This document shows positions 46,681 to 48,306 of a DNA stretch of 64,000 nt, in pieces (position 1 is the stretch's first letter; every line of letters starts with the position of its first letter). The notes below the pieces were generated by a model, which did no database searches, was not told the origin of the DNA, and saw nothing but the letters and a program-made list of their open reading frames with translations. The stretch lies in the NCBI RefSeq assembly GCF_916700565.1, contig NZ_CAKAKO010000001.1, positions 930,001 to 994,000 of the forward strand. Reading direction: 5' to 3'. The translations under genes and the position numbers were made by a program. Source of the DNA: Xenophilus sp. Marseille-Q4582. GTDB taxonomy: Bacteria > Pseudomonadota > Gammaproteobacteria > Burkholderiales > Burkholderiaceae_C.

Positions 46681-46759
46681 ACAAACAAAAACAAAAAGGC
46701 GTCCTCGCCGCGCCGGCCCTGTCGCGTGCTGCGAACAGATGCCGGTGGGTGAGGACGCC
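46681..46759 (-). terminator. Regulated leader terminator of the nitrate operon
   Basis: On the minus strand a 9-bp stem GGCGTCCTC/GAGGACGCC encloses a 44-base loop that itself contains short GC pairings, followed by TTTTTGTTTTTGTTTG. It lies between the promoter and nrtA, so it must be read through for operon expression. Confidence 0.85.
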
Positions 46760-46776
46760 TTTGTCCTGGGTCGGCC

Positions 46777-46825
46777 GGCCGCCCCCGCCTTTGGGAGCGG
46801 CCTGCCTTCAGACCTTCGTCGGTCT
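46777..46825 (-). promoter_or_regulatory. Two-hairpin ANTAR (NasR) target in the leader RNA
   Basis: Hairpin 1 (46810-46825): 5-bp stem AGACC/GGTCT with hexaloop GACGAA. Hairpin 2 (46777-46802): 10-bp stem with hexaloop AAAGGC. The two are 7 bases apart. ANTAR targets are two hairpins with six-base loops having A at position 1 and G at position 4; hairpin 2 fits both, hairpin 1 keeps G4 but has G at position 1. The terminator follows immediately. Confidence 0.78.
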
Positions 46826-46838
46826 CTGCCAGCGATGC

Positions 46839-46854
46839 AGCAAGCGCCGTGCCA
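46839..46854 (-). promoter_or_regulatory. Sigma54 promoter of the nitrate operon
   Basis: Minus-strand TGGCACGGCGCTTGCT matches the TGGCAC-N5-TTGC consensus completely, with GG and GC correctly spaced. Transcription would begin about 12 bases downstream, placing hairpin 1 at the very 5' end of the RNA, as in Klebsiella nasF. Confidence 0.85.
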
Positions 46855-46990
46855 TGTCTGCCTGCACGGCCGTGGCCGCCGCCGCTGGCGGGCGCTGGCG
46901 CGCGCAGCCCAGCGGGAATCCATGGGAAAGAGGGCGCCTCGCAAGGGCGGGGCGGCCCCACATGCGCGATCGCCAGCGGCCCCTGGGCAG

Positions 46991-47005
46991 GCACATCGTT
47001 TGTGC
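46991..47005. promoter_or_regulatory. NtrC-type enhancer site
   Basis: GCACATCGTTTGTGC has perfect GCAC-N7-GTGC half sites, the NtrC pattern. It is about 150 bp upstream of the sigma54 promoter. A looser GCAC-N9-GTGC arrangement adjoins it at 47008-47024. Confidence 0.7.
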
Positions 47006-47043
47006 GCCGCACCAGTTTGGCGTGCCGCCGCGCACGCCGGCGT

Positions 47044-48306
47044 TCAGCGCGGCGCGGTGCCCAGGGGCAGGAAGTCGGCCATCGCCAGCACCGATTCGGC
47101 CACATCCACCAGGCGGCGGTTCTGGTTCATCGCGGTCTGGCGCAGCATCTTGTGCGCCTCTTCCTCGCTGAGCTGGCGGTGCGCCATCAGCAACCCCTTG
47201 GCGCGCTCCACCACCTTGCGCTCGTTGAGCGTGGCGCGCACCTGCTGCAGCTCGTCGCTCATGGCCTGCAGGCGGCGCGACTGTTCCTGCACCATCTGCA
47301 GCACCGAACGGTCGAGCTGGCGGCCGTAGGTGGGCGTGGACGCAGAGGGGGGCGGCCCGCTGGCGTCGGCTTCGGCGAAGAAGTCGCCGGCCTGCACGGC
47401 CTGCGCCTCGAGCGCTTCGTCGCGCTGCAGTTCGGCGCGGGCCTGGGTCATCTTGCGGCCGCACAGGGCGCGCAGCTCCTCGGCCAGTTCCTCCTCGATC
47501 GCCTGCATGGCGTCGATGCGCTGCGAGCAGACTTCAAACCAGGACGGGCCGAGCTCCGCGTCCAGCACCGTGCCGGCCGGCGAGGCGCAGGCGATGCGGC
47601 GCAGCCGCTCCAGCTCGGCCAGCGGCGCCGTGGCCTGGCTGCGCTGCCAGCGGCTGCCCAGGGCTTCGTTGCTGAAGTCGCGGAACACGCCGAAGCAGCG
47701 CTCCTGCGATTCGATCAGGTGCAGCCAGTGCTGGCGCTGGGCATCGCTGTTGCCGCCGCGCAGGAAGGCGGCGGCGCCGAAGGCCCGTTCCTGCCCCGCG
47801 AATTCCTTGCCCTGCATGAAGTTGAACTGCGCCACCAGCCAGCGCGAGATGTCGGGGTCGGTCGCGCCGTCGGCGGCTTCGAAGACCACGGCCAGCAGGC
47901 CGGCCAGCAGGCGCGCGAAGGCGGCGGTGGCGAGTTCGGGGCTGAGCTGCAGCGCCTGCGCGCGCGCGCGCAGCGCGGGCAGGGCATCCAGGCCCTGCAG
48001 CACATAGGCCACGCGCGGAAACAGGCGCGCGCCGCCCGCCAGGCGGCGCGGATCGCTGACCAGCGGATCGAGGGCGGCGCGCACCTGCGCCTCCTGCCGC
48101 CGGCTTTCGGCGATCTGCCGGACGCGCTCGGCCGCATAGCGCTGGCCGCCGGAACCCAGGAAGACGTTGGTCAGGCCGCGTTCGCGCTGCAGCGCATGCA
48201 CCAGCCGGCCGACGGTGGCCACCAGCTCGCTGGTGCGCGCGAGCTGGTCCAGCTCGTCGATCTCGCAACGGCGGGCCGCAATCAGGAAGCCAAGGCTGGA
48301 GGTCAT
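47044..48306 (-). CDS. nasR: Nitrate-responsive antiterminator, NIT + ANTAR domains
   Basis: A 420-residue cytoplasmic regulator. Residues about 30-290 form a NIT (nitrate/nitrite-sensing) domain, with the [20 protein letters not shown] start typical of the family. The C-terminus (about 340-405) is an ANTAR RNA-binding domain: [24 protein letters not shown] helix, [21 protein letters not shown], and [15 protein letters not shown]. Nitrate binding lets NasR bind the leader hairpins and prevent termination. It lies just upstream of its presumed target leader, on the same strand. Confidence 0.93.

Follow-up and report, generated by a model that had tools for sequence, protein, structure and literature searches.

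A narK-RNA-like leader with a predicted NtrC/sigma54 promoter and NasR-type antitermination hairpins in Xenophilus sp. Marseille-Q4582

The 64,000-nucleotide stretch of the Xenophilus sp. Marseille-Q4582 genome analyzed here (the window, in whose positions all coordinates are given) carries a leader between the gene for a NasR-type regulator, with NIT and ANTAR domains, and a nitrate assimilation operon that opens with an nrtA-like gene. We consider it highly likely that this leader is a two-gate element of a known kind with a corrected anatomy, in which an NtrC/sigma54 promoter would be followed by NasR-type antitermination. On the minus strand, which holds all features listed, the NIT-ANTAR gene is followed by an NtrC-type site, a sigma54 box, three hexaloop hairpins (P0, P1, and P2), an intrinsic terminator, and the nrtA operon:

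47044..48306, minus strand: NIT-ANTAR regulator gene, NasR-type, 420 amino acids (Pfam NIT E 7e-52, ANTAR E 3e-21)
46991..47005, minus strand: NtrC-type dyad GCAC-N7-GTGC, beginning 151 bases before the -24 box
46840..46854, minus strand: sigma54 promoter TGGCACGGCGCTTGC, -24/-12 type, zero mismatches to the consensus used
46810..46825, minus strand: P0 hairpin AGACC-(GACGAA)-GGUCU, fold -6.8 kcal/mol, accessory, stem conserved and loop free
46777..46802, minus strand: P1 hairpin GGCCGCUCCC-(AAAGGC)-GGGGGCGGCC, -22.1 kcal/mol, upstream ANTAR hairpin with A1/G4
46752..46767, minus strand: P2 hairpin AGGAC-(AAAGGC)-GUCCU, predicted antiterminator hairpin, overlapping the terminator 5' arm
46761 to about 46691, minus strand: intrinsic terminator AAGGCGUCCUC...GAGGACGCCUU plus U-rich tract, -46.5 kcal/mol, z -7.3

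The regulator gene upstream on the same strand, the GCAC-N7-GTGC site, the TGGCAC-N5-TTGC-type promoter, and the strong terminator before nrtA are all present as an earlier note on this DNA had described them, and its likening of the whole to Klebsiella nasF is backed by conservation, co-occurrence, and predicted folding. Its two hexaloop hairpins from about +4 exist as P0 and P1; the third, P2, had been overlooked. The parts, their conservation, the co-occurrence with ANTAR genes, and the predicted exclusion between P2 and the terminator are results of computation.

The loops of P1 and P2 are both AAAGGC, with the A at position 1 and the G at position 4 (A1/G4) that mark the hexaloops of ANTAR leaders. 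The linker between the two is 9 nt long (P1 ends at 46777, P2 starts at 46767), or 5 nt if a lower P1 stem forms, and lies inside the range of 5-12 nt given for natural eut linkers (PMC3369931; papers are cited here by accession and for the sections covered). P2 shares most of its loop and its 3' arm with the terminator 5' arm. A 79-nt RNA ending just past P2 is predicted to fold as P0, P1, and P2 (-43.5 kcal/mol); in a 141-nt RNA, P0 and P1 are retained with the terminator in place of P2 (-86.9 kcal/mol, z -8.2), and P2 alone reaches -4.0 kcal/mol with four pairs. P2 and the terminator are predicted to be mutually exclusive, and because the full-length RNA folds the terminator instead, P2 would be expected only when held before the terminator 3' arm is made; holding a hairpin before the terminator forms is the accepted role of the ANTAR protein (PMC3369931, PMC8934654, PMC7496416). 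The covariance-model search that the earlier note had suggested agrees: R1, a model built without the window, places P1 and P2 at 46800-46750 with 40.5 bits, the next best matches scoring 10.6 bits in the window and 17.4 bits in the genome. Judged by these sequence features, P1 and P2 are the canonical ANTAR pair and P0 is extra; the proposal that the first two hairpins form the two-hairpin target of NasR gives way to this pair, whose second member is the one predicted to exclude the terminator.

The sole relevant Rfam match in the window is narK RNA (RF03032) at 25.8 bits, below the gathering score of 43.2, and by that threshold the window is not a member of the family. Weak matches to RcsR1, HTT-AS1_3, and WT1-AS_5 in the same stretch were set aside as noise (E 3.5 to 8.9, far below gathering). 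The opening of the RF03032 consensus, GGCaC...UUGCU, is a sigma54 box (about the first 14 positions), its 3' GACAAAGACGUC is P2, and its annotated helix maps to P1 in narK loci; the printed Rfam structure has one helix and lacks P2 and the terminator, and transcription would not cover its 5' part. Across 300 genomes of the order, RF03032 was matched at E <= 0.001 in 34 and above the cut-off in 3; the window's own genome is not among them. Two or more A1/G4 hexaloop hairpins (at least 3 pairs) occur in a fixed stretch at 28 of the 30 narK loci fetched, and hexaloop hairpins lie just beyond that stretch at the remaining two, L003 and L027.

R1 was built on 25 of these 30 loci (L003, L014, L019, L027, L029, and the window left out). 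In these 25 units the P1 and P2 stems are paired in 95.3% of cells compared with 73.1% after shuffling, with 57 double-change cells (17.6 shuffled) and 27 further pair types (18.7 shuffled). The covariation score is 0.623, compared with at most 0.132 for slid structures, which are paired in at most 53.1% of cells; less striking is the number of pairs with any double change, 8 compared with 5.6 shuffled and reached in 13 of 500 shuffles. Of the 300 genomes of the order, 147 have an ANTAR domain, among them all 34 that match narK RNA (p 3e-12, among related genomes). Measured from the leader, the ANTAR gene is no more than 500 bases away in 20 of these 34, no more than 2 kb in 25, and no more than 10 kb in 30. 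With R1, leaders were detected in 160 of 299 genomes of the family, and an ANTAR domain in 155 of the 160 leader-positive compared with 79 of the 139 leader-negative genomes (p 2e-18, kinship ignored). Because of the sigma54 box, the A1/G4 hairpins, the covariation, and this co-occurrence, we assign narK RNA to ANTAR control: very probably it is a sigma54 promoter together with an ANTAR dual hairpin. No paper naming the partner of narK RNA was found in the literature searched, which did not include the original description of the motif. That description is reportedly by Weinberg et al. in Nucleic Acids Research (NAR), 2017.

For comparison among relatives we used a set of 147 loci (146 distinct, as L014 and L039 are the same locus, which is counted twice in the 147, in the 48 given below, and in both trees); 116 R1 family matches were examined (30 given and 86 fetched), weaker ones being left out. 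The usual order across the 147 is ANTAR gene, leader, nrtA-like gene. After a hidden Markov model pass, the regulator is a NIT-ANTAR protein at 48 loci and an ANTAR protein without NIT at 71. The latter we call NasT-type by domain and size alone (mostly about 200 to 250 codons). Leaders were scored at 137 loci, the other 10 having P2 outside the position window though their hairpins are present, and were classed by the distance from promoter to P2 as short, with room for two hairpins, or long, with room for three. Scored NIT-ANTAR loci (n=46) comprise 39 short and 7 long leaders; those with ANTAR without NIT (n=65) 28 short, 35 long, and 2 longer still; and those where no regulator was found (n=26) 10 short, 15 long, and 1 longer still.

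The box at 46854-46840 is the only zero-mismatch sigma54 box in the window; with one mismatch allowed such boxes are at chance (5 found compared with 3.4 expected), and the single-window counts of these boxes and of NtrC sites are not used as evidence on their own. Among the 137 leaders, 135 have a sigma54 score of at least 9 (of 10.5), and in a narrower rerun the box is found in 124 of 137, with 0 of 135 in the downstream control and an expectation of 0.7 under shuffling. In the 220 bases before the promoter, 84 of 137 leaders carry the exact NtrC dyad, compared with 0 of 137 in the downstream control; allowing at most one mismatch, these numbers become 113 and 7, with about 19 expected from upstream stretches shuffled by single letters. 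By class, the exact dyad is found in 33/35 NasT-linked long, 27/39 NIT-ANTAR short, and 5/7 NIT-ANTAR long leaders. The window's genome has one sigma54 (rpoN) match, and with rpoN and ntrC in the genome, a box with GG at -24 and GC at -12, and a dyad upstream, the region has the parts of a sigma54/NtrC promoter. Transcription would start at about 46828, a position that we take from the usual spacing between promoter and start and that is one base off the 46829 of the earlier note.

The product of 47044..48306 matches NasR of Klebsiella oxytoca (4akk) over residues 8-409 (E 3e-52), a near full-length likeness with NIT and ANTAR in one protein, as in NasR, and it is the one ANTAR match in the window's genome. 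Named relatives put the organism close to Pseudacidovorax and Xenophilus, the seven best NIT-ANTAR matches being 81-83% identical in a comparison that may not cover records of the window's own genome. Helix 5 of K. oxytoca NasR holds a Glu-Arg pair, E175 and R176, assigned by prediction to the nitrate pocket (PMC7496416); its counterpart here is E173 and R174 in a conserved AGQERA stretch, an equivalence read by eye from the alignment. Of the eight RNA-contacting residues listed for EutV (K143, K147, Y164, R168, M172, N173, R175, R177; PMC8934654), mapped by hand with a numbering offset of 2, K143, R168, M172, N173, and R177 are identical and K147 is replaced conservatively by Arg. Sigma54 promoters have been predicted for COG3707 (ANTAR) genes in beta- and gammaproteobacteria (PMC12316311), the parts of that paper covered here not describing these leaders.

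On this basis, the first gate would be NtrC, active in nitrogen limitation, binding the upstream dyad and driving the sigma54 promoter. By default, the transcript would then end at the intrinsic terminator. Nitrate or nitrite would free the ANTAR face of the NIT-ANTAR protein, which could then take hold of the A1/G4 hexaloops, first in P1, the recruitment hairpin, and next in P2; P2, once held, would block the terminator 5' arm and allow transcription of nrtABC and the reductase genes. Control would in that case be complete, as the earlier note had it, with an AND logic of low nitrogen and nitrate.

Several points weigh against this two-gate reading. Taken alone, the window holds NtrC-type sites at chance (5 found compared with 5.2 expected), and the exact dyad is unevenly distributed among relatives, being present in 5 of 28 NasT-linked short leaders. 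The NtrC model matched 13 places in the window's genome, one of them over the curated cut-off, and another enhancer-binding protein might act here. No ANTAR regulator was found within the fetched flank at 28 of the 147 loci; at 4 of the 34 narK matches the ANTAR gene is more than 10 kb away or elsewhere (on another contig in 3, far away in 1), and 5 of the 160 leader-positive genomes (G325, G480, G495, G522, G554) have no ANTAR match. The genomes are related, so that the counts are not independent, and the sets based on R1 are selected for having P1 and P2. In the regulator, Tyr164 of EutV is replaced by His and Arg175 by Asn; K. oxytoca NasR has Trp and Asn at these places. What supports the reading well is computational: conservation, co-occurrence, and predicted folding; binding by the regulator, the response to nitrate, NtrC as the activator, and the start site are inferred. 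As to the five genomes without ANTAR match, incomplete assembly, false matches, or lost regulators are possible.

For P0, the comparison comprised 65 unique NasR-linked long leaders (64 from 80 named loci, and the window) and 32 of the 35 NasT-linked ones. A strict terminator rule misses P2 at thirteen of the 80. Promoter, P1, and P2 are present all the same at 11 of them, 10 with a visible terminator whose stem holds G-U, and the other 2 end at a contig edge, so that the leader is present in 78 of 80. Conservation of the leader, on which the earlier note had made its reading depend, is evident in P1 and in the P0 stem. The C-(A..G..)-G pattern of P1, which was not used to find the leaders, is at its place in 65/65, and parsing by stem alone picks the A1/G4 hexaloop in 59/65 (for P2, which served as the search anchor, 65/65 is built in). 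A five-bp hairpin is present in the P0 region of 63/65, compared with 19.2 expected from single-letter shuffles. Arms anchored on the P0 motif are fully paired in 57/65 with compensated changes, the script choosing the best-pairing loop length: AGACC/GGUCU 30, GGACC/GGUCC 13, AGGCC/GGCCU 6, AGGUC/GACCU 2, and 6 with G-U.

The P0 loop varies freely in the same 65 leaders: hexaloops with A1/G4 (8), with G4 without A1 (18), and without G4 (14) occur beside loops of 4 nt (12, for example GAAA, GCGA, GCAA, or UUCG), 5 nt (10), and 7 nt (2), and in one leader no loop was found. Xenophilus arseniciresistens (L161) has the P0 of the window, with the loop GACGAA; in L120 and L124, of the same genus, P0 can close as GGACCG(GCGA)CGGTCC. 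NasT-linked long leaders have A1/G4 at P0 in 16/32 compared with 8/65 (p 1e-4, among related sequences), which indicates that the loop is not strictly kept there either. Within the window's clade, the alignments depict P0 as a kept stem whose loop has escaped ANTAR-type constraint. Because the P0 loop is free while P1 keeps A1/G4, the G at position 1 of GACGAA, put forward in the earlier note as a departure from the ANTAR consensus, is probably best seen as part of loop drift and says little about NasR recognition. In EutV, A1 has no protein contact and G4 makes a base-specific one (PMC8934654), and the window's loop might for this reason still bind weakly. P0 probably lies outside the NasR target here; its stem may be kept for a different purpose, for instance to stabilize the 5' end, to set the spacing, or to order the folding, and P0 may be what remains of the third ANTAR-like hairpin seen in many NasT-linked leaders.

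Two side observations concern these hairpins. P1 is extended at 46806-46773 by a lower GGC/GCC stem beneath single-base bulges, and the AGGCAGG stretch around it, strongly conserved in NasR-linked long leaders, may pair there too. L020, L025, L029, and L030, from other families of Burkholderiales, have three A1/G4 hexaloop hairpins; the window's family is thus not alone in having a third one.

Four other explanations of the leader were weighed. That NasR recognizes P0 and P1, with the terminator merely downstream and G1 a mark of altered specificity, is very improbable in our estimate. In its favor, P0 does form a genuine hexaloop hairpin, with G4 and closed by C-G, at 7 nt from P1, and GACGAA recurs in 8 of 51 script-parsable leaders (window included). 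Against it, holding P0 and P1 would leave the terminator untouched, a G4 hexaloop is missing from P0 in 39 of the 65 NasR-linked long leaders, and at 39 of the 46 scored NIT-ANTAR loci the leader is short and no hexaloop hairpin with G4 is listed from the promoter to P1; P2 is present throughout the relatives. P0 as one of the two ANTAR hairpins was thus rejected, on the grounds of its unkept loop and the lack of terminator overlap. A three-hairpin relay, in which NasR loads P0 and passes to P1 and then P2 during transcription, P0 raising the efficiency of capture, has more in its favor and is still unlikely. The loops are spaced fairly regularly (about -58, -30, and 0), half of the 32 NasT-linked long leaders keep A1/G4 at P0, sequential capture has been proposed for EutV, and a G1/G4 loop like that of the window could still bind given the uncontacted A1 (both PMC8934654); the rarity of an A1/G4 loop at P0 in NasR-linked long leaders (8/65) and the GNRA-type tetraloop to which P0 can close in L120 and L124 argue against it.

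About as doubtful as the relay is a leader in which sigma54 and antitermination are as described and another enhancer-binding protein acts, leaving the first gate blind to nitrogen status. The 13 genomic matches to the NtrC model, one over the cut-off, and the chance-level frequency of the site in the window alone would allow for this, while GCAC-N7-GTGC upstream of 84/137 leaders and 0/137 controls points to NtrC. Least credible of all is a ligand-binding riboswitch unrelated to ANTAR proteins. Rfam files narK RNA as a cis-regulatory RNA, and its match output names no protein; separate small A1/G4 hexaloop hairpins and the strong co-occurrence with ANTAR genes led us to reject it.

Within the two-gate reading, the seven long NIT-ANTAR loci deserve separate attention. 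They are the window, its genus mates L106, L120, and L124, and L048, L052, and L079 of one other genus, and their leaders side with the NasT-linked long leaders and depart from those of the other NIT-ANTAR loci in three features: the distance from promoter to P2; the P2 loop, which is AAAGGC in 7/7 and in 31/35 NasT-linked long leaders compared with 0/39 NIT-ANTAR short ones (38 with AACGGC); and the median P1-P2 loop distance (29, 29, and 41, respectively). As far as these features tell, the Pseudacidovorax-Xenophilus-Variovorax clade pairs a NasR regulator with a NasT-type leader. A FastTree phylogeny of NrtA, covering 115 of 147 loci, places the seven in a single clade (support 99) within a 58-row group (support 93) of 26 NasT-linked long, 13 NIT-ANTAR short, 8 long loci where no regulator was found, the 7 themselves, and 4 others; the tree implies no fewer than 11 changes of regulator label and no fewer than 10 of leader class. 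In the NIT-ANTAR tree (quick search, 47 of 48), the same seven (support 98) are nested among short-leader NIT-ANTAR proteins (support 97).

Because these seven loci have NasT-type leader features yet a NIT-ANTAR regulator, we favor an exchange of sensors, tentatively and with slightly more doubt than conviction: the NIT-ANTAR protein of this clade would have replaced a NasT-type regulator beneath a kept long leader, P0 would then have lost its recognition loop and kept its stem, and narK RNA would join a sigma54 promoter to an ANTAR dual hairpin, with nitrate-responsive regulators of either kind able to use it. It should be noted that the support of the NrtA group falls below the tool's star and its branches are long, and that the group is mixed, only 26 of 58 being NasT-linked long, with no species tree behind the placement; these points weaken the case for the exchange.

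The closest described system is nasF of K. oxytoca, with which the window shares a NIT-ANTAR regulator. The nasF promoter is likewise of the sigma54/NtrC type. The nasF-type leader is described as having two hexaloop hairpins with A1/G4 that are closed by C-G, and the terminator overlaps the second of them (PMC3369931, PMC7496416); the window agrees with this description in each respect. The window differs in being betaproteobacterial and in its extra 5' hairpin P0, its NasT-linked leader features, and its Nrt ABC uptake. The leader logic is shared with the NasS-NasT systems of Paracoccus denitrificans and Bradyrhizobium diazoefficiens, for which a nasA leader with hairpins HI and HII and a nasT gene under NtrC (PMC5424462), and action of NasT on the nosR leader (PMC6759348), are described; these have a NasS sensor and a separate ANTAR protein, whereas the window has a one-piece NIT-ANTAR protein. 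Dual hexaloop antitermination with a similar linker is also found in eut/EutV of Enterococcus faecalis, which differs in its ethanolamine signal and two-component regulator and of which, to our knowledge, sigma54 is not a described part.

NasR antitermination has been called mainly gammaproteobacterial (PMC5424462), and the leaders described here extend it to a large betaproteobacterial group. The mechanism of antitermination is already known, the leader here being a variant; of most interest to specialists should be that narK RNA can be assigned to ANTAR control and that nitrate-responsive regulators appear to have been exchanged. With this assignment, narK RNA gains a concrete partner protein and a testable mechanism, and part of the RF03032 model is promoter DNA. 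In the Burkholderiales, NasR-type and NasT-type regulators alternate beneath similar leaders, a natural experiment on sensor domains swapped onto one RNA output, and the three-hairpin leaders, of which no report was found in literature titles and the starts of abstracts, offer a test ground for the sequential-capture model of EutV.

Downstream of the leader, the operon consists of the following genes:

45396..46652, minus strand: nrtA-like substrate-binding protein, first operon gene, ATG at 46652 (Pfam NMT1_2 2e-101)
44430..45395, minus strand: nrtB-like nitrate ABC permease (TIGR01183 over cut-off)
43630..44430, minus strand: nrtC/D-like nitrate ABC ATP-binding protein (TIGR01184 over cut-off)
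42369..43601, minus strand: NirB-like FAD/NAD reductase, N-terminal part only, 410 amino acids (TIGR02374 positions 1-396 of 794, below cut-off)
39523..42372, minus strand: molybdopterin reductase, probable assimilatory nitrate reductase, NasA-like (Pfam Molybdopterin 1e-75; Fer2_BFD below cut-off)

The reductase at 39523..42372 matched the NasA, NasC, and formate dehydrogenase models, each below cut-off. The NirB-like protein at 42369-43601 is a stand-alone FAD/NAD reductase adjoining this NasA-like gene, which has a C-terminal BFD-like domain. At L091, L114, and L142 the leader stands directly before a NirB-like gene with no ANTAR gene in the fetched flank, the regulator presumably being elsewhere in the genome. 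Some genomes carry several R1 leaders: G171 has 4, three of them within 12 kb (C1:156669, 159974, and 167744; L039, L134), and G320, G366, G443, and G523 have 3 each; the window's genome has one. In such multi-leader genomes, the ANTAR protein may control a small regulon.

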